Below, in pieces: positions 1 through 53,078 of a stretch of 64,000 nt of DNA. Source of the DNA: a virus; IMG/VR virus record IMGVR_UViG_3300009502_000026, positions 30,091-94,090 of that record. One strand, given 5' to 3'. The notes below the pieces were generated by a model that ran no database searches, had not been told where the DNA came from, and worked only from the letters and a program-made list of their open reading frames with translations. Made by a program: the position numbers and the translations under genes. The first letter of the stretch is position 1. Every line of letters begins with the position of its first letter.

Positions 1-284
<284 letters not shown>

Positions 285-285
285 C

Positions 286-325
286 TACTTACCCCACGGG
301 ACGGAAAACTTAACTCGAAATCGTA
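286..325 (-). promoter_or_regulatory. conserved 40-bp upstream element (copy 1)
   Basis: On the minus strand this begins TACGATTT, continues with GTTAAG at the same offset, and ends GTAAGTA just before the ligA start. The leader at 30407-30446 has the same words at identical spacing; I count 30 of 40 positions identical by hand. It sits in the short divergent gap (282-359). I infer a phage promoter or a conserved 5-prime leader signal. No standard -35/-10 pair is evident. Confidence 0.4.
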
Positions 326-359
326 CCGGACGTTAGGACACCTATAGGCACCGGGGGTT

Positions 360-785
360 TTGACCCTCCGCTCCAAACTGATCCGATTGGCTCACTCTAA
401 CACTGAACTTCGTCCACATCTGCTCCCACTCCTGAAGACAGCCACGGACTTCCCTACACAGGAAGCTCTTGACAAATACCTCAAGGAACACCCGGACGCT
501 GACAAGTCCAAGCACAAAGTTGTATCCAAGTCATCTGTGGATGCTGACAATGCCAGTGCAAAGGCAGACAAAGCATCACAGACTGCAAATACTACTTGGG
601 GCACCTATAAGGAGAAGAACCATTCGGATGCTAGGGACCTCCACTGGGAAGCCAAGAACCAGCACAACAAGGCCAAAGAAGAGGCCAAGAAGAATGGTGA
701 CACTGACAAGGCCAAGTACCATGAGGACAAGGCCAAGTACCATGAGAAAAAGGAACTGGGGCACGATAAGGACGCTTATCGTTGA
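360..785 (+). CDS. small charged protein with N-terminal targeting module
   Basis: A 141-aa protein starting at TTG (360). The start is supported because residues 1-28 (MTLRSKLIRLAHSN then ELRPHLLPLLKTA) match the N-termini of several sister proteins in this window. The following TQEALDKYLKEHPDA stretch resembles the segment after the first internal module of the 25642-27384 protein (TQEAMDEYLKAHPKA). The rest is highly hydrophilic, rich in Lys, Asp, His and Ala, with a near-duplicated DKAKYHE segment, and is probably helical. It could bind DNA inside the head, but that is inference. GGGG just upstream may serve as the ribosome site. It is divergent from ligA and followed closely by another module protein at 832. 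Confidence 0.72.
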   Translation: MTLRSKLIRLAHSNTELRPHLLPLLKTATDFPTQEALDKYLKEHPDADKSKHKVVSKSSVDADNASAKADKASQTANTTWGTYKEKNHSDARDLHWEAKNQHNKAKEEAKKNGDTDKAKYHEDKAKYHEKKELGHDKDAYR

Positions 786-831
786 CCCTTTACTTCCCCT
801 CTCAAAGACCACCCTTACCTGGGATAAGACA

Positions 832-1617
832 ATGACCCTGACCTCAAAACTGATCCGTCTCGCCAGTCAGAACCCTGCTCTCAAGCCCCACATCGCAGCC
901 ATCCTGAAGGAAGCCTCAATGTCTGAGCCTGACTTCTGGAAGCTCATCGAACCTTATGGCTGGGGGACCAAGACCACAGATTACAAAGCCATCAAGAAGA
1001 GCCTGATGGGGAAACTGTCTCCTGATGAGGCAGAGGGACTCCAGACTACAATGATGAAGCTGGAAGGCAAGCTTTACAAGGCTCTGAAAAACCTGAACAT
1101 TGTGTCAGGTGACACCATGGGTGACCTCATTGCCCACATCATAGGGATGGGCAAGAAGGAATTCGAAGCGGTAATCAAGGACCCCCAACTAGCCTACCAG
1201 CGTTACCAGAGCGGTCAGTACACGGAGTCCTTCAGCTACGCTCTCCCACACAAGAGTGACTACAAGAATCTCAACGTCACCAAATTCACTGACTGGGCAC
1301 AGGAGGTTATTGGTAACTACACAATGATCCTCAATGCCTCTGAAGATGACATCCCCTGGAAGTCCAAGCTTGCGGCTCCCTTGAAGAAGGTCATCTCAAT
1401 CATGGAGAAGTTCGTTGAGACAAAGGATGTAGCCACCTTCTTGGACAACGAAGCAGAAGCCAAGAAAGAGTCTGAAGAAGTGGGCAAGATTCTCAGTAGG
1501 TTGCAGCTTGGCTGGAGTATACCTAAAGAGGGTTCCCTGGAGAGTGCCGTTCATTTCAGCGGCAATAAGTGGGGTGTCTGGAACCTGTTCACTGATGTGC
1601 GGGACTACCTGAGCTAG
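832..1617 (+). CDS. 261-aa protein with N-terminal targeting module
   Basis: The frame is open further upstream (from 469), but the ATG at 832 gives residues MTLTSKLIRLASQNPALKPH followed by IAAILKEA, matching the module of the sister proteins. The longer upstream frame is only the shadow of the 360-785 gene. The module ends ILKEA, a fit to the T4-type prohead protease rule (L/I-x-E followed by a small residue). The remaining ~230 residues look alpha-helical and soluble; I do not recognise a fold. The gene converges on the methylase at 1614-2384 with a 4-base overlap. It is probably an internal virion protein. Confidence 0.75.
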   Translation: MTLTSKLIRLASQNPALKPHIAAILKEASMSEPDFWKLIEPYGWGTKTTDYKAIKKSLMGKLSPDEAEGLQTTMMKLEGKLYKALKNLNIVSGDTMGDLIAHIIGMGKKEFEAVIKDPQLAYQRYQSGQYTESFSYALPHKSDYKNLNVTKFTDWAQEVIGNYTMILNASEDDIPWKSKLAAPLKKVISIMEKFVETKDVATFLDNEAEAKKESEEVGKILSRLQLGWSIPKEGSLESAVHFSGNKWGVWNLFTDVRDYLS

Positions 1618-2384
1618 TCCTTCAGCAAGTCCAACACCCCAATGTTCTCAATAGGGACTGGTGTTGCTACATCAATCTTGGACTTGATAATATCACAATA
1701 GGAAGGCTCCTTCTCAATCAGGATGGACTTCCTACCCATCCTCTGAGCTACAATCCCTACAGTCCCACTACCTGCAAAGGGGTCCAATACGGTGTCCCCT
1801 ACGTCTGTGTAGACCTCCAGAACACGCTGAACCAAGCTAGGTGGGAAAGCCGCAGGATGCTCGGACCTGATGGAATCTTCTCCAACGGTACTCCAGATTG
1901 CCCTCTGACTGATCTTGCGTGCTCGTATCTCCTGGGCACCCCCACCGATCTTACGGAAGGTGTACAAGTGCTCAAACTCAGGTACAGCCCTGGGTGCCGA
2001 GATTGCGTGCTTACCCCCGGTCACTTTTGCAAAATCCTTCTGCCAGATACGCTGTGCCTGAAGTACCAATCCATGAGCCATCCCAAATGCCCAGTACACC
2101 CACCCCATAGGCATCTCACAAGGTTCCTCAGTACCTAAGATGTCCCTACTAGGAATGATGTCTCCAAAATTGAATACTGCATACCCCCCTCTTACAAGCA
2201 CTCTCTCTACCTCAGACATACAACGGTTCAAGAGGCCAAACAGGACACCAATACGGATGTCCGGTTCGTAGTCTTTCCCAACCCCGTATGGAGGAGACGT
2301 GAATACCAGATGAACTGATTCTGAAGGGAGGGTAGGCAGGACTTCTTCGAACAACCCACAAAAAACCCGGCATTCAGGTGTCAT
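1614..2384 (-). CDS. DNA methyltransferase, N4/N6-type (SAM dependent)
   Basis: The protein has catalytic motif IV TSPPYG near residue 30 and the SAM-binding motif I DPFAGSGT in the C-terminal third. This order (IV before I) is that of beta-class amino-methyltransferases, which methylate exocyclic amines of adenine or cytosine. ILIEKEPSYCDI after motif I is the usual acidic motif II region. Length (256 aa from this ATG) is normal. The frame extends to a TTG at 2405, but ATG 2384 is the more ordinary start. It probably modifies phage DNA against host restriction. The recognition sequence cannot be told from sequence. No restriction partner is adjacent, so it is an orphan. Confidence 0.85.
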   Translation of the reverse strand: MTPECRVFCGLFEEVLPTLPSESVHLVFTSPPYGVGKDYEPDIRIGVLFGLLNRCMSEVERVLVRGGYAVFNFGDIIPSRDILGTEEPCEMPMGWVYWAFGMAHGLVLQAQRIWQKDFAKVTGGKHAISAPRAVPEFEHLYTFRKIGGGAQEIRARKISQRAIWSTVGEDSIRSEHPAAFPPSLVQRVLEVYTDVGDTVLDPFAGSGTVGIVAQRMGRKSILIEKEPSYCDIIKSKIDVATPVPIENIGVLDLLKD

Positions 2385-2444
2385 GCTGGGATCATACCCC
2401 AACAAAACGTAGGCTGATTATTCGTCTACCTACAAACGGACCAA

Positions 2445-3404
2445 CTAACTGATGAGGGTGGAGGCATGAGCCAGAAGTGTGCAAAGCCCCAAAACTATTG
2501 GGAAAACAACGAAATTACGGGGGGACAAAACGCCCCGGCCGACGCTGGGACCGAAGCTTGATCTAATGCCAACTCCGTACTTAGGCTGAGACACACCACG
2601 GATGAACTTGGTAGTCCTTGCCTTCATCTCCGTGGCCTTATCGAACTGTTGCTCAGCATTCTGCTTCAAGGACTCATACTTGGAGGACTTCTCAATCGAG
2701 AGTGAGATGCCTCCAATGCTGTAGTCAAACTCGTCTGCCGTCCAGTTCATTGCCAGGGAAAAGCAAGCATGGGTGATGGCATTCCACAGGATTGCCGTTC
2801 TCCAAATAGGCTTCTTTGCCACCAAGTCATCAATGGTTCTGAGGTCTTCAGTCTCCGGGGGAAACATGTTCCACCAGTCCATGCTTCTCTCGATGTACTC
2901 AGCAAGTTCGGCATCTTCCCATAGCTGCCCGAAGACCCTGTTGTAAGACCCAATGGTGCCTTCATGCTCTGGGGGACGGAAGCGATAGAACTTGTCAGGA
3001 GAGTTTTTCAATACATTTTGTGTGCTTACACACACGAATCTGTACCAATCCGCAACAGTGAGATCGTACATATACTGTCGCACCGGGAGAGTTTCTACGG
3101 ACTTCACTGGCAGGTAAACGACAGCATCCCCGACAACAGACAACACCATATCACCGGGTTTGAGAGTCTCGGCCGGAACCTTATCCTCCAGGCCCAGCCC
3201 AAGGTAGACCGGGTGGCCTCCGGTCAACACCATGGTTCCTACATCGTTGGTGACAGCAACGATATGCTCCCAAGGAACCTCATTGCGAATGACATTCTCA
3301 ATGCGTTTCCACTCGACGTTGCCATCAGGGGATACCGAACGCACTTTGAGTTTGCCCGTATGGTAAGATGACTTGACCCTCACACGCTGCGCTTCGGTCA
3401 ACAT
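2445..3404 (-). CDS. split intein C-part (IntC) fused to C-terminal half of a phage structural (neck/connector-type) protein
   Basis: This is a 319-aa product. Residues 1-134 look like the C-part of a split intein: block-B-like TGGHPVYL (His64), LKPGDMVLSV (the usual V-GD segment), block-F-like YMYDLTVADW, and a terminal VLKN. The splice acceptor is Ser135 (N|SPDKFYRFRPPE). Residues 135-319 are the C-extein, of a type familiar from large-phage structural proteins: YRFRPPE, FGQLWED, MNWTADEFDYSIGG, EKSSKYESL, FIRGVSQPKYGVGIRS. The N-half lies at 4213-4701, with an endonuclease gene between. Oddities: the penultimate intein residue is Lys, not His, and the C-terminus carries a hydrophobic tail (VVFPIVLGLCTLLAH) that could be a membrane segment. 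Splicing activity is inferred, not shown. Confidence 0.8.
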   Translation of the reverse strand: MLTEAQRVRVKSSYHTGKLKVRSVSPDGNVEWKRIENVIRNEVPWEHIVAVTNDVGTMVLTGGHPVYLGLGLEDKVPAETLKPGDMVLSVVGDAVVYLPVKSVETLPVRQYMYDLTVADWYRFVCVSTQNVLKNSPDKFYRFRPPEHEGTIGSYNRVFGQLWEDAELAEYIERSMDWWNMFPPETEDLRTIDDLVAKKPIWRTAILWNAITHACFSLAMNWTADEFDYSIGGISLSIEKSSKYESLKQNAEQQFDKATEMKARTTKFIRGVSQPKYGVGIRSSFGPSVGRGVLSPRNFVVFPIVLGLCTLLAHASTLIS

Positions 3405-4171
3405 TCAAGTTCCCTCTCAGTCCACACCTTAAACGACCATCCCAGCCTATGGGCTTCTTCTTCAGCTACCCCCAAACGTACCCTGACCTTCTCGTACCCA
3501 CAATAGGCCGGGTCCAAAGCATAAGAAGGCTTAACCTCGATCAGGGTATGTGTCCCATTCTGATGGGTAACAATGAAATCCGGTAGGATATGCCAGCCAT
3601 TGGGCAACGCCAGGCAGTCCTCAAATACGTAGGATATTACATCATTTAGATGGTCTAACAATTCAGATGCCCGTTTTTCGTAAGATGACCTAACCTTAAA
3701 TCGCCCTCCCTTGACAGACTGGACCCATTCTGCCTTCCCATAGGGGTAGTTGAACTCAGGGTGGGATTTGATGAACAACACCCTGTTCCGGGAATACTTT
3801 GCCCTCGTAGATGGCCTGTCAAAGTTCCCGGCAGCCCACTGTGCTTCCAATTGTCCAGGGCGGGATTTCCCCTTCCATGAACGACCAACACGTACACCCA
3901 CATCATGCAGCACCCCCCTAGATGCTGGGTTCCACATAGCCCGGGTGAGCCGCTGGATGCTTCCTTGACCTAGCCCTGTCACGACCATCATGTCTGCCCA
4001 GGAAGTTCCCTGGGAGTGAAGTTCAGTGATGATGTCCCGGCGCACGCCCACAATCTTCTCATTGCCCTTCTTGGGTCGTCCCCTCTTAGCGAACTCTACA
4101 TAGGTCACACCATGCTTCTCCAGCAACGGCACGAGTTTAGGGTGCGGGATGGAAACCTGCATACAAGTCAT
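3398..4171 (-). CDS. free-standing homing-type endonuclease, TnsA-like PD-(D/E)xK fold
   Basis: About 257 aa from ATG 4171 (a GTG at 4183 and an ATG at 4162 are alternatives; none has a clear ribosome site). The N-terminus has an AT-hook-like GRPKKG and a helix-turn-helix-like stretch (DIITELHSQGTSWADMMVV). The middle carries a basic RVGRSWKGKSRPGQ segment like those in phage homing nucleases. The C-terminal ~100 residues fit a TnsA/PD-(D/E)xK nuclease: SSYEKRASELLD (Glu), then LPDFIV (Asp), then LIEVKPS (Glu-x-Lys), ending LGWSFKVWTERELE as in TnsA. It lies between the two halves of a split-intein gene, overlapping the IntC gene by 7 bases. That is the arrangement known for fractured genes, where such nucleases spread the intein. 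Confidence 0.8.
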   Translation of the reverse strand: MTCMQVSIPHPKLVPLLEKHGVTYVEFAKRGRPKKGNEKIVGVRRDIITELHSQGTSWADMMVVTGLGQGSIQRLTRAMWNPASRGVLHDVGVRVGRSWKGKSRPGQLEAQWAAGNFDRPSTRAKYSRNRVLFIKSHPEFNYPYGKAEWVQSVKGGRFKVRSSYEKRASELLDHLNDVISYVFEDCLALPNGWHILPDFIVTHQNGTHTLIEVKPSYALDPAYCGYEKVRVRLGVAEEEAHRLGWSFKVWTERELEC

Positions 4172-4212
4172 CGAATATAGCACAGAAAACGATAGTGTTT
4201 GTCTGGTGGGGA

Positions 4213-4701
4213 TTAGCTCGTCACGATGGTGTAAAGATCTTCCAAACTCACGATGATCTTCTCCCCATCAGCATCCACCTCGATAGTCTCCTCTCCTCCG
4301 AGACATTGATCTCGGAGGAGCAACCGGAGTTTCCCCACCATGTCCAGCATTGCCATGGAGAACGGTGGGACAATCGTGGTGCCTGAGACCACGACTGCCC
4401 ACTCCTGAACAACTTGCTGTGTCTGTGCCCCAGCGAACTCCTGGAAGGTCCACCTGATCCTGTAGTCCCCAGCCGTAGCTGAGACAGGGATCTGGAGGGA
4501 GGCATAGTACTCCCCTACCGTGGGATGGAGGGGTGCCCTGGTTGCACTCCCAATGAGTACCTCCAGGTGGGACACAGGGTCTACATAGTAGATCGCATAC
4601 GTGATGCTGAAGGCATCCGATGGGTTACCCTGTGAGTTGGTAAGGAAGATGTCTAGGTCTCCCCTACCAAGTGTCTGATTTGGTGTGAATACAACACCCA
4701 T
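4213..4701 (-). CDS. N-terminal half of structural protein fused to split intein N-part (IntN)
   Basis: A 162-aa product. Residues 1-132 are the N-extein, a beta-rich phage structural domain (FTPNQTLGRGDLDIFLTNS, ITYAIYYVDP, VGEYYASL, YRIRWTF) ending in KLRLLLRDQ. Residues 133-162 are a very short IntN: Cys133 followed by LGGEETIEV and IIVSLEDLY, a block-A pattern (C-L-x-G-x-T-x-x-E...-DLY). Atypical split inteins with IntN of about 25-30 residues, such as AceL-TerL, begin in the same way. Joining the exteins gives ...LLLRDQ|SPDKFYRF..., a continuous 317-aa protein of a family I recall as a single uninterrupted chain in related large phages. A stop codon follows the IntN directly. Confidence 0.82.
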   Translation of the reverse strand: MGVVFTPNQTLGRGDLDIFLTNSQGNPSDAFSITYAIYYVDPVSHLEVLIGSATRAPLHPTVGEYYASLQIPVSATAGDYRIRWTFQEFAGAQTQQVVQEWAVVVSGTTIVPPFSMAMLDMVGKLRLLLRDQCLGGEETIEVDADGEKIIVSLEDLYTIVTS

Positions 4702-29613: not shown

Positions 29614-30402
29614 CTACTCAGTGGTCAGAGAAAACCCCACAGGAATATCAGTGATATCAGTGATAGCCCCACCATGCCAAACAAAGTGGAAAGGTCCGGC
29701 TCCATAGGTATCTTCCCCAAGACACTTCTCGGTGATAGCCTTGGCATCACCCAAACCCATCCCAGAGACAGTTCGAACGAATTTGATGTAAGTGATCTTG
29801 TTGTGATGAACACTACCATCAAGGGTCTGTGCAGGATTCAAGTGACACAAGAGTCCAGTATCACCACGCTTCCTCTTGGGAAGCGGTGCTGAAATCACAA
29901 GATCAGGGGCTACAGGTGAGAATGACTGTGCTAGAACAGGGGTGCCCACATTAAGGGTACCCGGTACACCCTCTGGTCCCGTCATTCCTTGAGAACCCTT
30001 GGGCCCTGGAGGTCCCGCCACACCTTGAGGACCCTTGGGTCCAGGAGGTCCAGGGGGTCCCTTGAAGTTCTTGGTATTGATCAGGATAGCCAGATTGTCG
30101 AGCTTGGTTTCCAGTGCCCTCTGTTGGGTCTGGACAGCCTCCACCACCCCAACCATCCGGTCCACGGTACGAAGGATCAGCAAGGTCTCATCATGCCGAG
30201 AACTCAATGCCTCGGTAACCAAAGCCTCCAGAGTCTCCAACTGAGCCTGAAGAGTTACCCAGTGAGGGTCTTCCTTGAGTGTGACATTCGTTTCAGATGT
30301 TACACTAGGATTAGCAGCATTATCCTCAATATCCAGAAGTCTGAGAGCCACATCACCGGGTAGGTTAGAGTGTAGGATGGCAGGGATATCCTTTGGGTCC
30401 AC
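29614..30402 (-). CDS. coiled coil + collagen-like segment + L7/L12-like C-terminal domain
   Basis: 262 aa from a GTG start (30400-30402). Residues ~40-110 are heptad-like helices (LQAQLETLEALVTEALSS, LETKLDNLAILINTK). Residues ~115-148 are Gly-X-Y repeats (GPPGPPGPKGPQG). The C-terminal ~60 residues (NKITYIKFVRTVSGMGLGDA, then KAITEKCLG) resemble the ribosomal L7/L12 C-terminal fold, where I-x-x-I-K-x-V-R-x-x-x-G-L-G-L-x-E-A-K is conserved. A shaft ending in an L7/L12-like head is unusual. The conserved 40-bp element lies directly upstream. It is separated from the main fibre array by ~8 kb of internal-protein genes. Confidence 0.68.
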   Translation of the reverse strand: MDPKDIPAILHSNLPGDVALRLLDIEDNAANPSVTSETNVTLKEDPHWVTLQAQLETLEALVTEALSSRHDETLLILRTVDRMVGVVEAVQTQQRALETKLDNLAILINTKNFKGPPGPPGPKGPQGVAGPPGPKGSQGMTGPEGVPGTLNVGTPVLAQSFSPVAPDLVISAPLPKRKRGDTGLLCHLNPAQTLDGSVHHNKITYIKFVRTVSGMGLGDAKAITEKCLGEDTYGAGPFHFVWHGGAITDITDIPVGFSLTTE

Positions 30403-37108: not shown

Positions 37109-39868
37109 CTAAGATGTCGATTTCTCTCTCAGTGCCAAGAGTTTCGCCATCCTAACCAGAACTGTTGCCTCTTGGGTTGTGGGCTCTCGGCCCATCGTGA
37201 ACTCACAAGCCTGGAGGAAAGTAGTCAGGGACCGGAACCCGGTAGGAGACCCTACCATCCCTGCCACCTTGTACAGGTCACTAGCGATCTTGATACCCTG
37301 CGAATTGTTCAGGGCTTCTAGCTTGAAGATGAAGTCATTGTCAGAGCTTGCAGTTCTAACAAGTTTCTGAACCGTAGCCTTGTATTGGGCTACCTTGGGG
37401 GTACTTCCAGTGATCAGAGTTGCTTGGGGAACCAACTTAGGAGTATGCCCCACTACCTTCACACTAGCCTGACTCACCAAGGTATCGTTGGGGGCATCAG
37501 AAGAAGGAGCCGCAGGGTTAGTATTCCCATAGGGGGCAGACCCCCCATTCATGGCATCCTGGACTCTCTTCTTGACCCTATCCAGCATCTTCCCGTAAAG
37601 CTCATCTTCCATGTCCTTCAGAGGATCAGGCTTGGCTTCAGGGGCAGGTTCCGTAGCAGGAGCATCAACTCCCTCATCCTCAAACTCCTGTGCTACACAG
37701 GAGCTTGCTGCCTTAGCTAGACCCTCTGGGAGATTAGAGAAGTCATTCTTGGGCAAGGTCTTCGGGATACTGAACATTTTCTTCCCACTAGGAGAGAAAG
37801 CTGAATCCCCTACCACCTTGACAGGACCACGAGCTACGGCACCTGTAAAGGCTGGGATCTTCACCCAAGATCCTTCCACAAAGACCACACCCCCTGTTGC
37901 ATCCTCTGTCTCATGTCCACAGAGTTCCGCAATCTGATGCCTCTGCCCCATCTCATCAAAGAATATATTGCCCTTCAGGTGACGGATGCAGTTACAGAAC
38001 TCCGTCTCATCTGAAGCCCAATTCCCACACTTTGTACATGTCGTACTCTGTGTAGTGCAACCCATAGATAGGGAATCAAGAGCACCGGATTCAATGTCCT
38101 GGATGAGTTGAACATGCTTACGGTCATTAGCTACCAGGATGTCCACGTACACAGAGGGGCCAATGTCCCTGGCTACAGCATCAATGATCCGACCCTTGGA
38201 GAGCTCCTCAATCTGAACGTGCTCCACGAAACTGTGAGCACCGATCAAAGTAGGGTAGGACTTCAGGAGTACCGGACGAGACCACGCATCAGAGTTATGA
38301 ACAGCGATCCCCCCTGCGATATAGGAATTGTCCTCTTCTACCTCAAGGTTATGGACCTTGCCCTGGTACTCCACAACCTCTACAGATTCTACGATCTGGA
38401 GGCAGTAGCCATTCAAGAACCGGAGATCAGGTACCTTCTGGACCTCACCATGGGATTCCAGAAATGCAGCATAGGCACCCTCATATTTGGTACCTTCCAG
38501 TAGATCATTCAGATAACCAGCCCCGCAGGATAGAGTCCACCCCTGGGTCTCTTTGGTGGGGTCTGAAACCACAATCGGTTTACCGTCCACTACCAATCGT
38601 TTACGGCCCTCCAGGACAGCAAAGGTCCACTGGGGGGCCACCCCCAACCTATGGAGGATCAAACGTACTTGGTTGATCAGGGATACACTTGCGGAACTAC
38701 CCGTCAAGCGGGCATCCCCAATCTTGGAAGTAAAAAAACTCCCATCCCCCTCAAACCACCCCTTGACTACCTCTTCCTGTACCTGATGTGAGGCACGGAG
38801 GAGATCCTCATGCAAACTCTTGGTCTTTGACCCATCGCCCAACACCCAACGAGAGAAGAACTCCACCAGGGGCCTATTGGTCTTGGTCGTGACCACAATC
38901 CCCTTATCAGTCTGATGATACCTGATAGTGCTGTCTGCCCCAAACTCTGACTTGAGGAGAGAACATACAGTTTTCGCTAATGTATTCTCCTCACTCAGGT
39001 TGAAGGCAAAGCACACCCCTACCCTCTCATTGTCCTTACGGGAGTCCAGTTCATAGTAGCCTTCCGCAAGAAAGAGCCCGAGAAGCCTAGCTTGGCCCGG
39101 TGTCAACCCCACAGAGACATCCCCATCCAGGATGGGTGTGGCTACAAAATCCCAATGATCCCTCACCTGACCAACAGGTACGAATTCTCCCCTCTTCTCA
39201 GTCAGAAGATCACGTTTAGGGATTCGCTTGCTGTAATAGCAAGCCCCACTACAGTAGAATCTGTCCAGAAGGTGGGAAATACACTTGCTGGCATGGTGGA
39301 TATTGGACCCGCACTGAATACAGGCTTCCTGGGGGCGGAACACGAAGAATGGGTGTTCCCGGGTTACATATAGTCTCTCGTTACACCCACGGTACTTCAA
39401 CCCCAGAAGTGCCCCATCAACCTGATGGCTATAGGTCTGGAGAACTTTACGTGCCCTTCCTGTATGAGTCAGAACCTCATCCCCCACCTGTACCTGCTCA
39501 ATGGGCTTAACCGTCCCATCTGACATTGTAATGGATGTGCCAGGAATGAAGCAGTTATTGTTGATCCATTTTTCGCAGTCAGCTTTGACCCGGAAGTCAG
39601 CATACTTCCGGTTGATCTTCTGACCATCAAACTGAATCATGCCCAGCTTGGTACCGGGAGTAGCAACCGTATCTACCGAAGCTACCAGAGTTGCGTGAGT
39701 GAGAAGGTACTTGGAAGGGTCAAATGACTCCCCAAGAATATCAGAAGCTTGCTTCACCAAGTCCCTGTCCAACCGGGTAGACCCGGATGCTACACGGACA
39801 TCATCCCATACTCCATCCCGGAGCTTGGGAACGGTGACCAGAGCTCTTGCAGTTCTTAGGAAGGCCAT
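37109..39868 (-). CDS. prohead maturation protease, interrupted by an intein
   Basis: 919 aa, of which residues 106-525 are an intein. The 499-residue host protein shows a prohead protease core: GAHSFVEHVQIEELSKGRII (His550 is the probable catalytic His), DILVANDRKHVQLIQ and ESGALDSLSMGC (Ser601 the probable nucleophile), a pattern like T4 gp21-type proteases. It is followed by a zinc-ribbon segment (CTKCGNWASD, FCNCIRHLKG). The C-terminal third is charged, with a helical end (ALNNSQGIKIASDLYKVAG). It cleaves scaffold and head proteins during maturation. GGGGTAAGTCC precedes the ATG. Confidence 0.85.
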   Translation of the reverse strand: MAFLRTARALVTVPKLRDGVWDDVRVASGSTRLDRDLVKQASDILGESFDPSKYLLTHATLVASVDTVATPGTKLGMIQFDGQKINRKYADFRVKADCEKWINNNCFIPGTSITMSDGTVKPIEQVQVGDEVLTHTGRARKVLQTYSHQVDGALLGLKYRGCNERLYVTREHPFFVFRPQEACIQCGSNIHHASKCISHLLDRFYCSGACYYSKRIPKRDLLTEKRGEFVPVGQVRDHWDFVATPILDGDVSVGLTPGQARLLGLFLAEGYYELDSRKDNERVGVCFAFNLSEENTLAKTVCSLLKSEFGADSTIRYHQTDKGIVVTTKTNRPLVEFFSRWVLGDGSKTKSLHEDLLRASHQVQEEVVKGWFEGDGSFFTSKIGDARLTGSSASVSLINQVRLILHRLGVAPQWTFAVLEGRKRLVVDGKPIVVSDPTKETQGWTLSCGAGYLNDLLEGTKYEGAYAAFLESHGEVQKVPDLRFLNGYCLQIVESVEVVEYQGKVHNLEVEEDNSYIAGGIAVHNSDAWSRPVLLKSYPTLIGAHSFVEHVQIEELSKGRIIDAVARDIGPSVYVDILVANDRKHVQLIQDIESGALDSLSMGCTTQSTTCTKCGNWASDETEFCNCIRHLKGNIFFDEMGQRHQIAELCGHETEDATGGVVFVEGSWVKIPAFTGAVARGPVKVVGDSAFSPSGKKMFSIPKTLPKNDFSNLPEGLAKAASSCVAQEFEDEGVDAPATEPAPEAKPDPLKDMEDELYGKMLDRVKKRVQDAMNGGSAPYGNTNPAAPSSDAPNDTLVSQASVKVVGHTPKLVPQATLITGSTPKVAQYKATVQKLVRTASSDNDFIFKLEALNNSQGIKIASDLYKVAGMVGSPTGFRSLTTFLQACEFTMGREPTTQEATVLVRMAKLLALREKSTS
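38294..39553 (-). mobile_element. intein with LAGLIDADG endonuclease (protease gene)
   Basis: 420 residues, from Cys (after WINNN) to Asn (VHN before SDAW). Block A is CFIPGTSITMSDGTVKPIEQ; the end is GKVHNLEVEEDNSYIAGGIA followed by VHN. LLGLFLAEGYY and VVKGWFEGDGSF are the two LAGLIDADG-type motifs, both with the catalytic acid (Glu, Asp), so the endonuclease looks intact. It is inserted upstream of the catalytic core. Confidence 0.9.
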
Positions 39869-46155: not shown

Positions 46156-49100
46156 CTACCCGAATCTTCCACCACCCTCATCAGGCTTCTTGTACTTGAG
46201 CTTCAAGTACTCAGCGATCCTCTCCACTACATCAGAATTCTCGGCAAGGTTCCTACCGGCTTCAGTGTAGATACCCCGGAGAACTTCATTGAACGTGGAG
46301 TCATTCAGGGTAAACACATCCCGCATGAGCTTCTCGTTCGTAGCCGTGGGGTCAATGTTCAGGAGTTCCAGGATGATATCAATATCCAGAGAACCCTTCT
46401 GATAGAGGTTGAACAAAGCATCGAAGGTATCAGCATTGTCCCGAAGGGCAAGACGGGTGAAGGTAAGGGTTGGGACAACCACTTCTTCATTCCCATCCTC
46501 ATCGAGCTCAATGAACCCCATGCGCTTACACATGGGAGCCAGCATGTTCTGTTCAACCATCTCCTGGAGGATTTCCCGCAGAAGCATGAACCGGGTGTTG
46601 ATAACCTCCAGATTGATCCTGTCACCGGAGTAGCTGGACTCCCCAGACAAGAGAGATTCAGTGACCCCCAGACCGGCATACAACTGCCTATCTGTCTGGT
46701 CATACTCAGTCGAGAGTTCCAGGAGACGCTGACTAGACCCCATCTCCTCCCAATTGACCTGGAAGTTGGTGATGATGGAGTAGTCCGGGTCCATCAGGGC
46801 CATATCCACCTGATCCCGGAGGTTCTCTACATCTGCCACATCCATATCTTCGGCATAGACCAGCCGAATAGGAGTCATGTGGCGAGAAGCAATCTGTGTC
46901 TGGGACTGACGGAGCTTATCCCGATAGACCAGGGTACGAATGCAGTTATGGACTACGATCCCACCGGCTACTAGAGTCTCATCATCCTCTACATCAAAGG
47001 AATAGACCGGACCCTGATAGTGGAACCGTTCCACTTTATCAAGGGTATGTGTTGTCCAACGGTCATCCTTCTTGAAGTACCCAAGTCTGATCTTCTCTTT
47101 GTAGCCCTGAAGGTAGGGCTTCGTGGCACTTGACCACACAGAGAAACTAGACATCCGGGCCATTGTAATAGGTGAATGAGTACGGAGCACATAAGTAGTG
47201 AAAGCCCCGTAGGAATAGGTCTTGTCCCTAACACGGGATACCCTAGGGTGTGCTTTGGGGAACTTTGCACGCCCCCCTATAGGCTTCCCCCCCACTACCT
47301 TCTTCACCTTACGGGAACTCTTACGGCTCTTCCACCGATCTACCGAAAGGTTCAGTCTCTTACACACCAGATACAACTGCGAAGTCAAAATTGCATCATG
47401 GAGATGAAGCTCCATAAGCTTCTTCCCAATGGTTTCTACCCTACCGCTACTGTCAAGAATACCCCCCAAAAGTGCCAGAAGGTACTTCTCTCGGACCCCA
47501 AACATCCAGTCAGGAAGTATCTTGGACTTACCATACTGGAAGTGTTCGTGAATCCAACGAGCCAGTAGGGCATCCGGCAACTTGAGAGTAGTGTGTGCCC
47601 CAGAGTCTTCAATCTCTATGGACTCTTCCCCAAAGACATTCTGGAGAGCTTCCTTGAGCTTGAGGACACAATGGGAGTGCTTCTTGTCTATCCACCACTC
47701 AGTTACATACTGGGCTGGTGAAGAATAGGTGGGGAGTTTCACCTTCCCCTTAGCTACCCATGCACCCAGGATGTAGCAGAGGTCTTCGGTCATCTTGAAG
47801 GAGACAGTATGAGGGGCAACTGCATGTCCCCAGGCAAAGGCACCAGGAGCCGGTAGGAACTCAGGATAGGCAAGGCCCCCTGGGGAAGCCCTGCACATCG
47901 AGTTCTCCCAATGGTCTGCTAGATCGAACCGGAGGGGCACCTTACGGTCATGTGTACGGATATGACTCTCCCGTACCTTGTCCCCAGCCTTGATGTCCCC
48001 AGCCAGGACTTCTTCTTCCTGACCCTCTGCGTTGATCCTTATGATCTTGTGATCTTTGGTGAAGCAGATAGGGTCACGGAGAGAGATAGAATGGATTGTG
48101 ATACCCACAACCTCTTCATCTACATTCCGAGTGCCCTTAGAAGCTTTACGAAAGCGACCTTTCCCTGTCAGGAGAAGATCAGTGTTCACATCCACTTGCT
48201 CAACCGGGATATTGACAACCAAACCCTGCCGATTGACCGTGATAGGTGTTCCAGGAAGAATACAGCGTTCCAGGACCGAATGGCCCCTGGGCTCATACTG
48301 TGACTTCTTCCTTGCCATGTAAAACACAAAACTCCCGGATTCGGGGTCTGTGTTCAGAGGAATGTTTTCCCCTTTCCGAATGGAATCCACAACCATTGAG
48401 GGCATGGAATCCACGATCCGTTGGGCCTGGGGGTCTCCAGCTTCGGCCTTGTGGATGATGTCTTTGGTCTTGCTATCAGGAACCAGTTCAATGAGTTTCT
48501 GGTCAGTGAAAGGATAGCTCTCCATGTGAATCTGTTCCGGGGGCAACACCCGAATTGCAGACCAACCATGGTAGTTTCTCTTCAACCACTTGACCGCACG
48601 CTCATTGGCATCCTGTCGATCTTGCCACTCTTCCGCAACACTTCCGTCTTCCTGAAGTACCCTGAATATCTCCTGAGTGATATCCTGGGGCATGTCTTCA
48701 GAAGCATCCTCACAGAAGATGAATACCTCACCCAACAGGTTGTAGTCATGGACGATTTCGATGAGACGATGAAGAAGTCCAATCTTCTTCGCCCACTTTG
48801 CACAAAAATTCAAGGATCTTTGTGCAATGTCACGATTCTTAGCCTTGGGCATACCAAGGCGAACCTTAGACAGAGGAAGTTCTGTCTGTAGGTCCAGAGC
48901 TTGGCCTACGAACGGATCAGCCCCGTAGAAGAACCGGAAATAGTTCCTCTTTTCATCGAGGGACTGAGGGAGTTCCAGGAAGTCTGTGGAGAGCTCAGGG
49001 CTGTAGAAATTGCCCCCAGAACCCTGGACAGAACCACTCACTGAAGGATAAGCCACCTTGGATCGAAGAAACCCTGTGGCAATCTTCGGGGGCTTCCCTA

Positions 49101-49176
49101 CCTTCACACCCTTCCGGGGAGGTACTTTCCCAACAGTTACCGCTTCAGTCTTATCAGTCTTATCAGCCATAGTCAC
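46156..49176 (-). CDS. portal protein, interrupted by an intein
   Basis: 1006 aa, of which residues 305-744 are an intein. The host protein (566 aa) has portal landmarks: YFRFFYGADPFVGQALDLQT near residue 85, LIEIVHDYNLLGEVFIFCED near 140-156, GWSAIRVLPPEQIHMESYPF near 205, and after the intein IRTLVYRDKLRQSQTQIASR, TNFQVNWEEMG, QLYAGLGVTESLLSGESSYS and INTRFMLLREILQEMVEQNM. The portal forms the ring through which DNA enters and leaves. KIATGFLRSKVAYPS near residue 35 is a basic N-terminus of the RVAS/KIAT type. Upstream of the protease and downstream of TerL, as expected. Confidence 0.88.
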   Translation of the reverse strand: MTMADKTDKTEAVTVGKVPPRKGVKVGKPPKIATGFLRSKVAYPSVSGSVQGSGGNFYSPELSTDFLELPQSLDEKRNYFRFFYGADPFVGQALDLQTELPLSKVRLGMPKAKNRDIAQRSLNFCAKWAKKIGLLHRLIEIVHDYNLLGEVFIFCEDASEDMPQDITQEIFRVLQEDGSVAEEWQDRQDANERAVKWLKRNYHGWSAIRVLPPEQIHMESYPFTDQKLIELVPDSKTKDIIHKAEAGDPQAQRIVDSMPSMVVDSIRKGENIPLNTDPESGSFVFYMARKKSQYEPRGHSVLERCILPGTPITVNRQGLVVNIPVEQVDVNTDLLLTGKGRFRKASKGTRNVDEEVVGITIHSISLRDPICFTKDHKIIRINAEGQEEEVLAGDIKAGDKVRESHIRTHDRKVPLRFDLADHWENSMCRASPGGLAYPEFLPAPGAFAWGHAVAPHTVSFKMTEDLCYILGAWVAKGKVKLPTYSSPAQYVTEWWIDKKHSHCVLKLKEALQNVFGEESIEIEDSGAHTTLKLPDALLARWIHEHFQYGKSKILPDWMFGVREKYLLALLGGILDSSGRVETIGKKLMELHLHDAILTSQLYLVCKRLNLSVDRWKSRKSSRKVKKVVGGKPIGGRAKFPKAHPRVSRVRDKTYSYGAFTTYVLRTHSPITMARMSSFSVWSSATKPYLQGYKEKIRLGYFKKDDRWTTHTLDKVERFHYQGPVYSFDVEDDETLVAGGIVVHNCIRTLVYRDKLRQSQTQIASRHMTPIRLVYAEDMDVADVENLRDQVDMALMDPDYSIITNFQVNWEEMGSSQRLLELSTEYDQTDRQLYAGLGVTESLLSGESSYSGDRINLEVINTRFMLLREILQEMVEQNMLAPMCKRMGFIELDEDGNEEVVVPTLTFTRLALRDNADTFDALFNLYQKGSLDIDIILELLNIDPTATNEKLMRDVFTLNDSTFNEVLRGIYTEAGRNLAENSDVVERIAEYLKLKYKKPDEGGGRFG
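46945..48264 (-). mobile_element. intein with degenerate LAGLIDADG motifs (portal gene)
   Basis: 440 residues, from Cys305 (after VLER) to Asn744 (VVHN before CIRTL). Block A is CILPGTPITVNRQGLVVNIP; the end is VYSFDVEDDETLVAGGIVVH followed by N. The endonuclease motifs read LGAWVAKGK and LLGGILDSSG: the catalytic acids are replaced (Lys, Ser), so homing activity is probably lost while splicing residues remain. Confidence 0.9.
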
Positions 49177-49527: not shown

Positions 49528-49788
49528 TTACCACCGTAGAGATGGGGTCAGATGTCCATATTTGATGGCAATAGTAATGATCTTCTTGAGAAGAAGGATG
49601 TCCTCAATAGAACCTTCAAAGACCCCTTCCCACGATCCCCCAGCCTTGACAAAGACCCGTGATACCTTGTCATACTCAGTAGGAATATGAACCACCTTGT
49701 TTGGATGGACAGATTCAAGGATCTTACGGATGATCCTATGATCAGACCTGACAGGACTGGTGGGAGTGAGGCTTGCTGTGCGATTCAT
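49528..49788 (-). CDS. small unknown protein overlapping TerL stop
   Basis: 86 aa. TSPVRSDHRIIRKILESVHP begins the sequence, and the C-terminal part SIEDILLLKKIITIAIKYGH is helical. Its start overlaps the TerL stop by 4 bases (ATGA-type coupling). Small genes here often encode head-completion or terminase partners. No fold recognised. Confidence 0.58.
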   Translation of the reverse strand: MNRTASLTPTSPVRSDHRIIRKILESVHPNKVVHIPTEYDKVSRVFVKAGGSWEGVFEGSIEDILLLKKIITIAIKYGHLTPSLRW

Positions 49789-52700
49789 CTTCCACGCTTC
49801 CTACCTGCCAAGCCACCCGTACCCCCCATTCCAGACCAGCCACTCCTACCACTAGGGACACCCATTGCAGGAAGTCCACGGGGAGCCATTCGAGACTCAT
49901 GGCTCCCACTAGCAAGAATTCGTTTCCGAGCCTTCATTGCACCAGAGGGGGTACGGGGCACCTGACCATTGTCCATGAACCGAGAGGTTCCTCCTGCATG
50001 TGTGATATAGGATGGTTTTCCAAGTACGTTGGATGCAGCCCACACCATTCTAATCAGAGCATCAGAACGGTCATCATGCTTCCCCTCCATATTGGGGGCT
50101 TCCACCGTAACTACATACTTACTATGATACTCTGCCTGAAGCTCCATGAGTTCCACAATGTAATCACAATGGTTGGCACCATCAGGAATCGGAAAATCAT
50201 ACATGACCAGCTTATGGTCATACATCATGTCCTTGAAGTTCTGGAACATCTGGGACGTGAGTATCTTTGTCATCTGTGTAGCCTTCATCTGCCGAAGGCC
50301 ACGCTTGGCAAGTGCCTGTTCCAGGGGGATACCTGCCCACTGGTCAAAGATACCTTCATGGATCAGGAACTTCTTGGACAGTTCTGCAATCCAGTCAGCT
50401 ACAGCATCGAAGTCCAGCCGCTCGACGTTGATGTACTTACCTTCTCCAGCCTTGATCTGGTCTACAAGATCGACTATGATCTTTCTCTCAGCGAGGTCAA
50501 TGTGTCCAAGTGCAATTGCCGTCGCATCACCCGACAGACCCAAGTCCAATCCAAGGAAGTAGGATTGCCTGGGAACCCCGTAATACTTCGGGCGAGCCCC
50601 AGGGTCCACGCAATCCATCAGGTCCTTGTCACGCTCAATCCAACCACGGGTCCTGTCAGTGAACTCCCCCCCGTACTCAGTGAAGAACACTGAAGGGTCT
50701 TTCAGGTAGTGCTTTTCAAACTCCTCGGCAGGAATCGTAGGATTGACTTCCCAAGTTGGTGCCTGGATGCACACCATGTTCTTGGAAGCCTTGCCACCCT
50801 TCATCCCAATCTGAAATAGCTTGTAGAAAAGACCTTGCTTTCCTAGGGGAGATGAAATCGAGATGATCCGGCCCTCTACTGGACCAATAGGAACTCTCTT
50901 GTCACTAGCCTTCTTGGGAGAGAAAGCTGAAGTAGACGGGGTAACCGCATTGTAAACGGACTCTGCGGAAGACTGCCCTTTGTCTGTGAAGTGGGCAATC
51001 TCGTCCAGAATCACGACTAGGTTACCGGCACCACGAAGACCCTTGGCTACACAGGATCGGAAGGTGACCTTAACCGAGGCCCTTGCATTAGGATTCTCAA
51101 TATACCTACCGTACTTTTCAATGTCCTTGGGTGTCTGGAAACGAGCATAGGACATGGTATTGTTGGCTGTATAAGGTACGAAGAACTCACACCCCCTGAA
51201 ATGCCCTGAAGTTTCCTGATAGAGAAGTCCTGCCTGATCCTTGTCCGTAGCAACCGAGATGATCTGGATAGGGTTGCTGGAAGGTAGCCCGTAGTATTGA
51301 TGTGGGTCACTCTTCAGGATCAACTTGTAAGTCTCATAAGCTGCGATAATGGCACCTATGGCCGTATTGTGGTTGGTCATCCCCCCAGCTACAAAACTCT
51401 CCCCTTCTGGGACGGTCAGATCATATACCCTAGCCTCACCTGAATTTACGGTTTCTACGGGATCGTAGAAATAGTTGGCCGTCTGAAGTACCTCAAAATG
51501 ACGTATCACATCTGGGTCTGCCCCTAAACTCTGAGCCATTGCCAGTGTGGGGCCAAGCCTGGGGTATGTCATGGACTCCTTGGAACTCGGTTTGATGGTG
51601 TTCCCCAAAGCCGTCCGCAACAAACTACGATGCCAACCTGGACGTTTCCCATGCCCCCCACGGTTACAGGTCACAGATTGAAGTAGGGCATCACACCAGG
51701 ATCGTTGATGGGGAATGTTTTCAGCATCCGATCCTTCTTTGGAAGTCCTAGCCAAAGATGCCAACACTGGGTCATTTTTCTTGGACGACCTAAATCCAAT
51801 CTCGTCCATGAACTTCTGACGGGAGGCCGTACCTCTCACGTACACGTTGTAGTAGAATCGCTTGTACTTCTTATTCCACTTTGCCCGTCGAGTACTCACA
51901 ACCCCGAAGTTCAGGAGAAGTATTTGAACTTCCCGTGCAAGTTGCTCCGATGCCGAAGAGAACGATACAGCCAACCCCCCCTTCTCTGAGCAACCATCAG
52001 TCTCAAACAATCCCTGTAGGAACCTCTGCACAACAATCTTAGGGGACCTCATGATGGTCCACGGGACGTGCTTGGTATTCCTTGTAATATCCCATGCGAA
52101 CCCCAGCTTGTGTAGAAACTTCCTCACATGAGTGCTGAAGAAGTCAATGGAGCCAGTGTTGTTGGTCCGCTTGTCCATACGGACGTTGAAAGATCCGAAT
52201 AGACTGGTGTACAGCGCCTTCAGTTCCTCCCAGGTCTCTGGATGCTCTACAGTCACAGACACCGCATTGTGCTTCGTCCATGAACCACCCCCGACCAAGT
52301 ACCCCAGGAAAAGTCCCCATTCTTCAGTAAGCTCAGTTGGGAGAGTCACCCTGGGGTCTTCACATCCAGTATGGAGGGACTCCAACGGTACCCTCTGAAC
52401 AGGCCAAAGGTCAGATGTGCGATGAATAGCGATCTGGTCACCAAGATGGATATGGTCCAGGTATCTCCATTGGATGGTGCCACCTTCGGACATCACCCTA
52501 ACTCGGTGACCAGCGGTACCCTCAAGTTCATACCCACTACGGGTCACAAACTTGATTGTAGGTTTCACCCCTCCATTGTAGAAGAATGCAGAATCAGACC
52601 TGACACCATTCTCCTGGACCACACCAATTTCCAAAGGCTGGTACTCAGGACCCTTGGAATCTCCGAGGTCCTGAATGGGGATTATGCCCTGGTTGGTAAG

Positions 52701-53078
52701 AACCAGGGTATCCCCAACCACACATTTCCCAGAACGTCTCCCGATGGACAGGACGATCTCCCTACGTTCTACTCCAGGGATGACCTCCCGGATATTGCTC
52801 CTACCCTCCCGGTAGAGCATCTCCAGGTATTCAACCTCAGTATACTCAGTGAACTTTTCCCATCTCCAATCGTGGACAGTGAACCGATTGGCTGGGTCAT
52901 TATCAAGCTCAATCCCATAATGGGCTTTGAGGATGATCTTCTGTACTGGAAACAGCTTTAGGTTCAGCCCCCAGTCAGACTCAGTGAACTCAATGATGTT
53001 TGCTACTTGAGAAGTACTTTTCGTAATGTTTGCTGCGGCCCTAGCAGAGCCCAATGCAATCTCACCTAGATTACCCAT
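49785..53078 (-). CDS. terL: terminase large subunit, interrupted by an intein in the Walker A motif
   Basis: 1097 aa, of which residues 119-571 are an intein; spliced length 644. The ATPase P-loop SIGRRSGK is cut exactly after Lys118 and resumes at Thr (TAIGAIIAAYETYKL), so GRRSGKT is rebuilt only by splicing. Walker B is NLVVILDEIAHF. The RNase H-like nuclease is YFLGLDLGLSGDATAIALGH (first Asp) with a C-terminal HDDRSDALIRM acid. It packages DNA into proheads and cuts it. The C-terminal tail is Gly/Arg/Met-rich. It is the strongest phage hallmark here. Confidence 0.9.
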   Translation of the reverse strand: MGNLGEIALGSARAAANITKSTSQVANIIEFTESDWGLNLKLFPVQKIILKAHYGIELDNDPANRFTVHDWRWEKFTEYTEVEYLEMLYREGRSNIREVIPGVERREIVLSIGRRSGKCVVGDTLVLTNQGIIPIQDLGDSKGPEYQPLEIGVVQENGVRSDSAFFYNGGVKPTIKFVTRSGYELEGTAGHRVRVMSEGGTIQWRYLDHIHLGDQIAIHRTSDLWPVQRVPLESLHTGCEDPRVTLPTELTEEWGLFLGYLVGGGSWTKHNAVSVTVEHPETWEELKALYTSLFGSFNVRMDKRTNNTGSIDFFSTHVRKFLHKLGFAWDITRNTKHVPWTIMRSPKIVVQRFLQGLFETDGCSEKGGLAVSFSSASEQLAREVQILLLNFGVVSTRRAKWNKKYKRFYYNVYVRGTASRQKFMDEIGFRSSKKNDPVLASLARTSKEGSDAENIPHQRSWCDALLQSVTCNRGGHGKRPGWHRSLLRTALGNTIKPSSKESMTYPRLGPTLAMAQSLGADPDVIRHFEVLQTANYFYDPVETVNSGEARVYDLTVPEGESFVAGGMTNHNTAIGAIIAAYETYKLILKSDPHQYYGLPSSNPIQIISVATDKDQAGLLYQETSGHFRGCEFFVPYTANNTMSYARFQTPKDIEKYGRYIENPNARASVKVTFRSCVAKGLRGAGNLVVILDEIAHFTDKGQSSAESVYNAVTPSTSAFSPKKASDKRVPIGPVEGRIISISSPLGKQGLFYKLFQIGMKGGKASKNMVCIQAPTWEVNPTIPAEEFEKHYLKDPSVFFTEYGGEFTDRTRGWIERDKDLMDCVDPGARPKYYGVPRQSYFLGLDLGLSGDATAIALGHIDLAERKIIVDLVDQIKAGEGKYINVERLDFDAVADWIAELSKKFLIHEGIFDQWAGIPLEQALAKRGLRQMKATQMTKILTSQMFQNFKDMMYDHKLVMYDFPIPDGANHCDYIVELMELQAEYHSKYVVTVEAPNMEGKHDDRSDALIRMVWAASNVLGKPSYITHAGGTSRFMDNGQVPRTPSGAMKARKRILASGSHESRMAPRGLPAMGVPSGRSGWSGMGGTGGLAGRKRGR
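51366..52724 (-). mobile_element. intein with LAGLIDADG endonuclease (TerL gene)
   Basis: 453 residues, Cys119 (GRRSGK before it) to Asn571 (TNHN before TAIGA). Block A is CVVGDTLVLTNQGIIPIQDL; block B includes ELEGTAGHRVRVMSE; the end is YDLTVPEGESFVAGGMTNHN. Endonuclease motifs are LFLGYLVGGGSW (acid replaced by Gly) and RFLQGLFETDGCS (Asp kept): half decayed. Confidence 0.92.

Follow-up and report, generated by a model that had tools for sequence, protein, structure and literature searches.

Fractured genes, as described by Dassa and colleagues in 2009 (cited in PMC12350094), reportedly combine split inteins with homing nucleases of the EDxHD/Vsr type. The locus analyzed here lies in a 64,000-nucleotide stretch of viral DNA (hereafter the window; positions 30,091 to 94,090 of IMG/VR record IMGVR_UViG_3300009502_000026) and shares with such genes two open reading frames (ORFs) that each join an extein half to an intein half, a free-standing nuclease gene between them, and intact homologues elsewhere. 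It differs from the known EDxHD cases in its nuclease, which has the fold of Tn7 TnsA. A further comparison is offered by the atypically split inteins of the AceL-TerL/GOS-TerL type, in which an S2 split follows the first helix and the N-terminal half (IntN) measures 15-37 aa (PMC13014065). The window intein resembles this class in combining a short IntN that starts with Cys (Cys1) with a long C-terminal half (IntC), but it occupies a different host gene. The locus is best read as a mobile split-intein cassette, composed of IntN, a TnsA-like homing endonuclease gene, and IntC, at a conserved codon (site a) of a phage structural gene, with an estimated probability of about 0.87.

Architecture of the Fractured Gene

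The first-pass annotation of the window had proposed a split intein with a nuclease gene between its halves and exteins that join to one 317-aa phage protein. The layout and the exact junctions were confirmed at base resolution (slashes mark junctions):

4306-4701, minus strand: N-extein, 132 aa, the immunoglobulin-like N-terminal half of the protein (31 homologues; model with a beta domain)
4216-4305, minus strand: IntN, 30 aa, Cys1 (Cys133), CLGGEETIEVDADGEKIIVSLEDLYTIVTS, kept in 10 other site-a alleles
4213-4215, minus strand: IntN stop codon TAA
4183-4212, minus strand: fossilized C-extein start (SPPDKHYRFL), in frame right after the IntN stop
3398-4171, minus strand: TnsA-like PD-(D/E)xK nuclease gene, 257 aa from ATG 4171 (assigned by PF08722, fold, and catalytic residues)
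4183, 4171, and 4162, minus strand: start options of the nuclease, with the ORF open to GTG 4183 and ATG 4171 or 4162 the better candidates
3003-3404, minus strand: IntC, 134 aa, from ATG 3404 to Asn134 at 3003, ending NVLKN
IntC residues 61-64: block-B motif TGGH
2445-3002, minus strand: C-extein, 185 aa, Ser+1, containing an empty second insertion site (ADEF/DYSIGG)

The nuclease gene stands free between the two gene halves and its stop codon overlaps the start of IntC (ATGTTGA). The extein halves sum to 317 aa, the IntC junction reads ...KN/S, and the splicing residues, carried on separate ORFs, are all present, namely Cys1, TxxH, the terminal Asn, and the +1 Ser. IntC matched the Pho RadA (E 1.6e-5) and Mja KlbA (E 4e-5) inteins in the PDB, and Pfam Intein_splicing was matched below threshold only. 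The IntN measures 30 aa in the window and reaches about 37 aa in relatives, each with Cys1 and a long IntC partner, and it ends after the first helix, a boundary read from the sequence pattern only; the AceL-TerL-like split position suggested earlier for this very short IntN agrees with these features. Comparison of IntC with that of the T4-like TerL split intein was not significant (hhalign probability 1%), AceL-TerL itself not having been compared. Every occupied site had an IntN with its matching IntC, and the extein halves of the window copy are predicted to join by protein trans-splicing. Intein homology, the nuclease family, homologues that cross the junction, and recurrence at the same codon place the arrangement beyond chance.

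Empty Alleles and Occupancy of the Insertion Site

Searches with each extein half retrieved around 60 non-redundant uninterrupted IMG/VR alleles that cross the junction as ...LRLLLRDQ/NPDKFYHFRPPE..., the joined site in empty homologues reading LLRDQ/NPDK. Comparison of occupied L057 with empty L065 gave ~88-90% identity on both sides of a clean ~1.35-kb insertion in L057, with borders GATCAG/TGC and AAC/TGC-CCAGAC against the equivalent GATCAA/AAT-CCAGAC in L065. On account of these read-through alleles and this comparison, the gene encodes one protein broken exactly at the proposed point, and the refuting outcome named in the first-pass annotation, homologues that do not run through the junction, was not borne out. 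Among the alleles compared (the best 80 of 187 matches plus earlier loci, so that frequencies are not population estimates), the +1 residue at site a was Cys or Ser in all 15 occupied alleles and Asn in 76 of the 80 empty ones (one Ser).

Insertion at the same codon, together with a TnsA-like gene, was identified in L008 (a 485-kb phage deposited as LR745208), L027, L057/L058, L059, L084/L086, L121/L122, L124, and L127, and occupancy changed 11 times on a tree of 79 exteins obtained by a quick search. The cassettes of L057 and L084 were nearly identical in DNA (98% for IntN, 94% for the nuclease, 97% for IntC; synonymous divergence, dS, 0.05-0.13) within flanking exteins that were 74-84% identical and saturated at synonymous sites, which shows horizontal movement of the entire cassette. 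The transfer was recent, and its borders are codon-sharp. Many alleles carry the insertion at this one codon and the cassette is mobile, two features characteristic of homing.

The TnsA-Like Nuclease

The window nuclease scored above the cut-off for Pfam PF08722 (TnsA-like, E 3.4e-6). A sequence search of the PDB with it returned no match and hence no likeness to I-Bth0305I or Vsr, and fold comparison was therefore used. Its AlphaFold model (mean predicted local distance difference test score 81) matched Tn7 TnsA (1t0f and 1f1z, E 4e-6) in Foldseek as the sole PDB entries below E 0.001. The catalytic residues are E165 (3677-3679), PD198F (3578-3580), and E212-V-K214 (3530-3538), and E165, PD198F, and E212-V/I-K214 were invariant across a nine-sequence nuclease family. 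The core fold and the E, PD, and ExK arrangement are those of Tn7 TnsA, whereas the N-terminal parts differ and the protein is free-standing beside an intein. Neither TnsB nor TnsC was present among the flanking genes read, the whole record not having been searched. Relatives of the nuclease have extra N-terminal and central modules of the kind usual in homing enzymes. In IMG/VR, close relatives of both the nuclease and IntC were found at site a only, and bacterial genomes yielded no close relative of the nuclease. The TnsA-like character proposed in the first-pass annotation was upheld by profile, fold, and catalytic residues; the AT-hook it also pointed out (KRGRPKKG) is present in the window nuclease but was rejected as a family feature, its RGRP core being confined to the window while relatives have GRP, GRL, GRV, or NHL.

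Nuclease Loss and Re-fusion

The nuclease has been lost by internal deletion in L091 and L095, where both its ends remain between IntN and IntC, and has been deleted in the middle in L126, where the frame continues into IntC. An extein-like peptide antisense to the L126 IntN was judged a coincidence, as it is missing from other alleles. The ratio of nonsynonymous to synonymous substitution rates (dN/dS) of IntC was 0.08-0.11 among L057, L084, and nuclease-deleted L091, and that of the nuclease, which is retained in most cassettes, was 0.31. Strong purifying selection on IntC combined with nuclease decay would be expected if splicing were needed and the nuclease dispensable. At a second insertion site (site b, described below) of L084 (5860-7251) and also of L086 the nuclease is gone and one continuous 463-aa ORF encodes a cis-intein, an apparent reversion from the split form.

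In the proposed mechanism, the extein halves would be made as separate proteins that associate through IntN and IntC, and trans-splicing via Cys1, Asn134, and Ser+1 would produce a virion protein of ~317 aa. We infer that the joined LLRD-NPDK site of intein-free alleles is most likely the target of the nuclease and that repair of the resulting break would copy the whole cassette into the cut allele, making homing the probable route of transfer. Later, the nuclease could decay, and the splicing parts, being needed by the host gene, would be retained.

Alternative Explanations and the State of the Window Copy

The window copy is diverged and appears worn, and several observations weigh against a functional homing cassette there. 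Its nuclease aligned only with positions 1-118 and 170-306 of the family profile and thus lacks the central module of its relatives (positions 119-169), with the ORF and catalytic residues intact. In IntC, block F reads WYRF versus WHNF or NHNL in relatives and block G has a penultimate Lys versus Ser or His; because both blocks depart from the family, the splicing efficiency of the window copy is uncertain. The first-pass annotation had singled out this Lys as unusual, which is correct within the present intein family but not beyond it, since the PhoH split intein of Campylobacter phage CP20 also ends KN/C. No near-identical window cassette was found in a second phage, and recent mobility is therefore established for relatives only. 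Ordinary phage recombination at the flanks, acting without the nuclease, could in principle give the transfer. These phages are clearly recombining, so spread by general recombination rather than by nuclease-driven homing deserves some weight, yet it is unlikely: homologous recombination over long flanks would not readily leave a codon-sharp border where cassettes of 98% identity meet flanks of ~74%, and most cassettes have kept the nuclease (dN/dS 0.31).

The aberrant F and G blocks would also suit a two-subunit protein, in which a nuclease broke the gene, each half functions as a subunit of its own, and the remaining intein parts are vestigial; that such breaks are tolerated is illustrated by the LigA genes, split by a TnsA-like nuclease and devoid of an intein, of three related phages. 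This account is improbable given that IntC remains under strong purifying selection even after nuclease loss (dN/dS 0.08), that all 15 occupied alleles retain the +1 nucleophile, that IntN is matched by an IntC at each occupied site, and that at site b of L084 the break has closed into a single cis-intein ORF. Slightly less credible still is a separate job for the nuclease, for example in head completion as in the T4 gp4 family, with its position due to chance. Among PHROGs it matched phrog_218 ("head closure", E 1.2e-6) best, and among viral structures a head-completion nuclease, but its relatives carry the N-terminal and central modules of homing enzymes, its close relatives were found inside this intein only, the gene travels with the intein, and it decays freely (L091, L095, and L126). 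Although the sequence comes from a 94-kb metagenomic contig, an assembly artefact can practically be dismissed, as the same arrangement recurs in independent contigs of 72-529 kb and in the deposited LR745208, and isolated phages have analogous layouts.

With the mobile cassette retained as the preferred reading, the copy in the window probably represents a late stage within the family, in which splicing is likely still needed and the nuclease may be impaired. The first-pass annotation missed both the fossil after the IntN stop and the second fracture site of related phages. The motif PD[KR]xY[HRK]F occurs twice in the six-frame translation of the window, in the fossil and in the true C-extein. 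SPPDKHYRFL is a diverged copy of the C-extein start that is missing from other site-a alleles and would be a scar left when an insertion or a repair was imprecise. When IMG/VR was scanned with a degenerate pattern for a donor allele (PDKHYRF), only non-coding chance matches were returned.

A Second Fracture Site in the Same Gene

The gene has a further break, new here, at DEF/DYSIGG (site b), which was identified in L009, L010, L014, L026, L027, L059, L073, L091, L092, L112, L127, and others. Its inteins have Ser1, with Ser or Thr at +1 in 17/17. In a profile search the site-b nuclease had as its best PDB match 3r3p ("Mobile intron protein"), which we take to be I-Bth0305I, the EDxHD reference structure, followed by Vsr (1cw0), such that site b fits the EDxHD/Vsr-type fractured genes. 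Since both cassettes are present in L027, L059, and L127, the gene is in three pieces there, with two nuclease classes. The family would supply short-IntN split-intein pairs of two chemistries, Cys1 at site a and Ser1 with Ser/Thr+1 at site b. The catalytic residues at site b avoid Cys, and most of these proteins keep some non-catalytic Cys. Such pairs are useful because PolB16 has been named the sole known natural cysteine-less atypically split intein (PMC13014065).

Putative nuclease genes with ERYG-repeat domains were observed just downstream of the same gene in L008 (7504-8937, DUF7487), L009 (7359-8927), L057 (6918-8195), L073 (7055-8398), and L124 (5473-6945). These probably belong to the CapR-like EDxHD homing group (PMC12350094).

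Related Loci in Deposited Phages

The viral fold match led to the same pairing of a TnsA-like nuclease with a split intein in deposited phage isolates. TerL of the T4-like phages HY03, SG1, phiR1-RT, TG1, and PspYZU05 resembles site a in its short IntN and long IntC (ending ESHN/C) and has an overlapping nuclease gene (PF08722, E 1.9e-9), but its extein is different and its nuclease has other DNA-binding parts, with the catalytic domain alone related. A TnsA-like nuclease also lies between split-intein halves in PhoH of Campylobacter phages CP20, CPt10, and CP21 and in UvsW of Proteus phage PM2, although these inteins are split conventionally (IntN ~100 aa, IntC ~36 aa). The window and CP20 nucleases (hhalign E 1.3e-4) have only the catalytic domain in common. 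The UvsW gene of PM2 was not counted as a natural three-piece spliced gene, the translation of its third ORF having no intein half.

The pairing, which the first-pass annotation had put forward as possibly new, is therefore a recurrent class and not a single oddity, largely unremarked in the deposited phages, where the nucleases in the PhoH, TerL, and UvsW loci are annotated as "endonuclease," "hypothetical," or "Tn7_Tnp_TnsA_N superfamily." No paper linking TnsA to split inteins was found in the open literature, a search that did not cover subscription literature including the main fractured-gene paper. TnsA-like nucleases probably constitute a second general homing class that mobilizes phage split inteins, in four unrelated host genes, and that in some large phages occurs together with EDxHD nucleases in a single gene, giving a natural three-piece protein that requires two different trans-splicing reactions. 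Jointly with this reading, the gene family probably displays a full life cycle comprising empty alleles, cassettes with nuclease, cassettes that have lost it, and a re-fused cis-intein. If so, more than one nuclease family can accompany fractured genes, recruitment of the TnsA fold as a mobility partner of split inteins has happened repeatedly, and the extein family offers a natural time series of split-intein origin, spread, nuclease loss, and re-fusion that was hard to observe before. With the TerL versions of T4-like phages, which include kaaroe (isolated on K-12 MG1655), homing becomes testable in ordinary Escherichia coli phages.

In TerL of Krischvirus G2494 (L155, 1696-4807), the N-extein, IntN, and TnsA-like nuclease form one ORF, a possible intermediate between embedded and free-standing nucleases. 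The three split LigA genes are interrupted at the OB/zinc-finger linker, with the TnsA-like nuclease between the parts (L128, 664-3447; L146, minus strand, 89-4346, with extra ORFs between; L148, minus strand, 1233-4004); the window's own LigA (L149) is intact, with 639 aa. Free-standing TnsA-like nuclease genes were also located next to a conserved structural gene, with intact genes on either side (L145, 2063-2941; L147, minus strand, 2266-2886), as further evidence of a mobile family.

The Host Gene and Other Inteins of the Phage

The interrupted gene product is probably a phage head-tail connector protein, a label that derives from weak PHROG matches (E 0.001-0.016) and one phage annotation; a structure search of the PDB with the extein gave no confident match. 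Among the flanking genes read, a methylase lies downstream. Three other large ORFs of the window (37109-39868, 46156-49176, and 49785-53078) carry contiguous inteins with LAGLIDADG-like motifs, and the phage accordingly has at least four inteins. By eye, the latter two ORFs look like the portal and the terminase large subunit.
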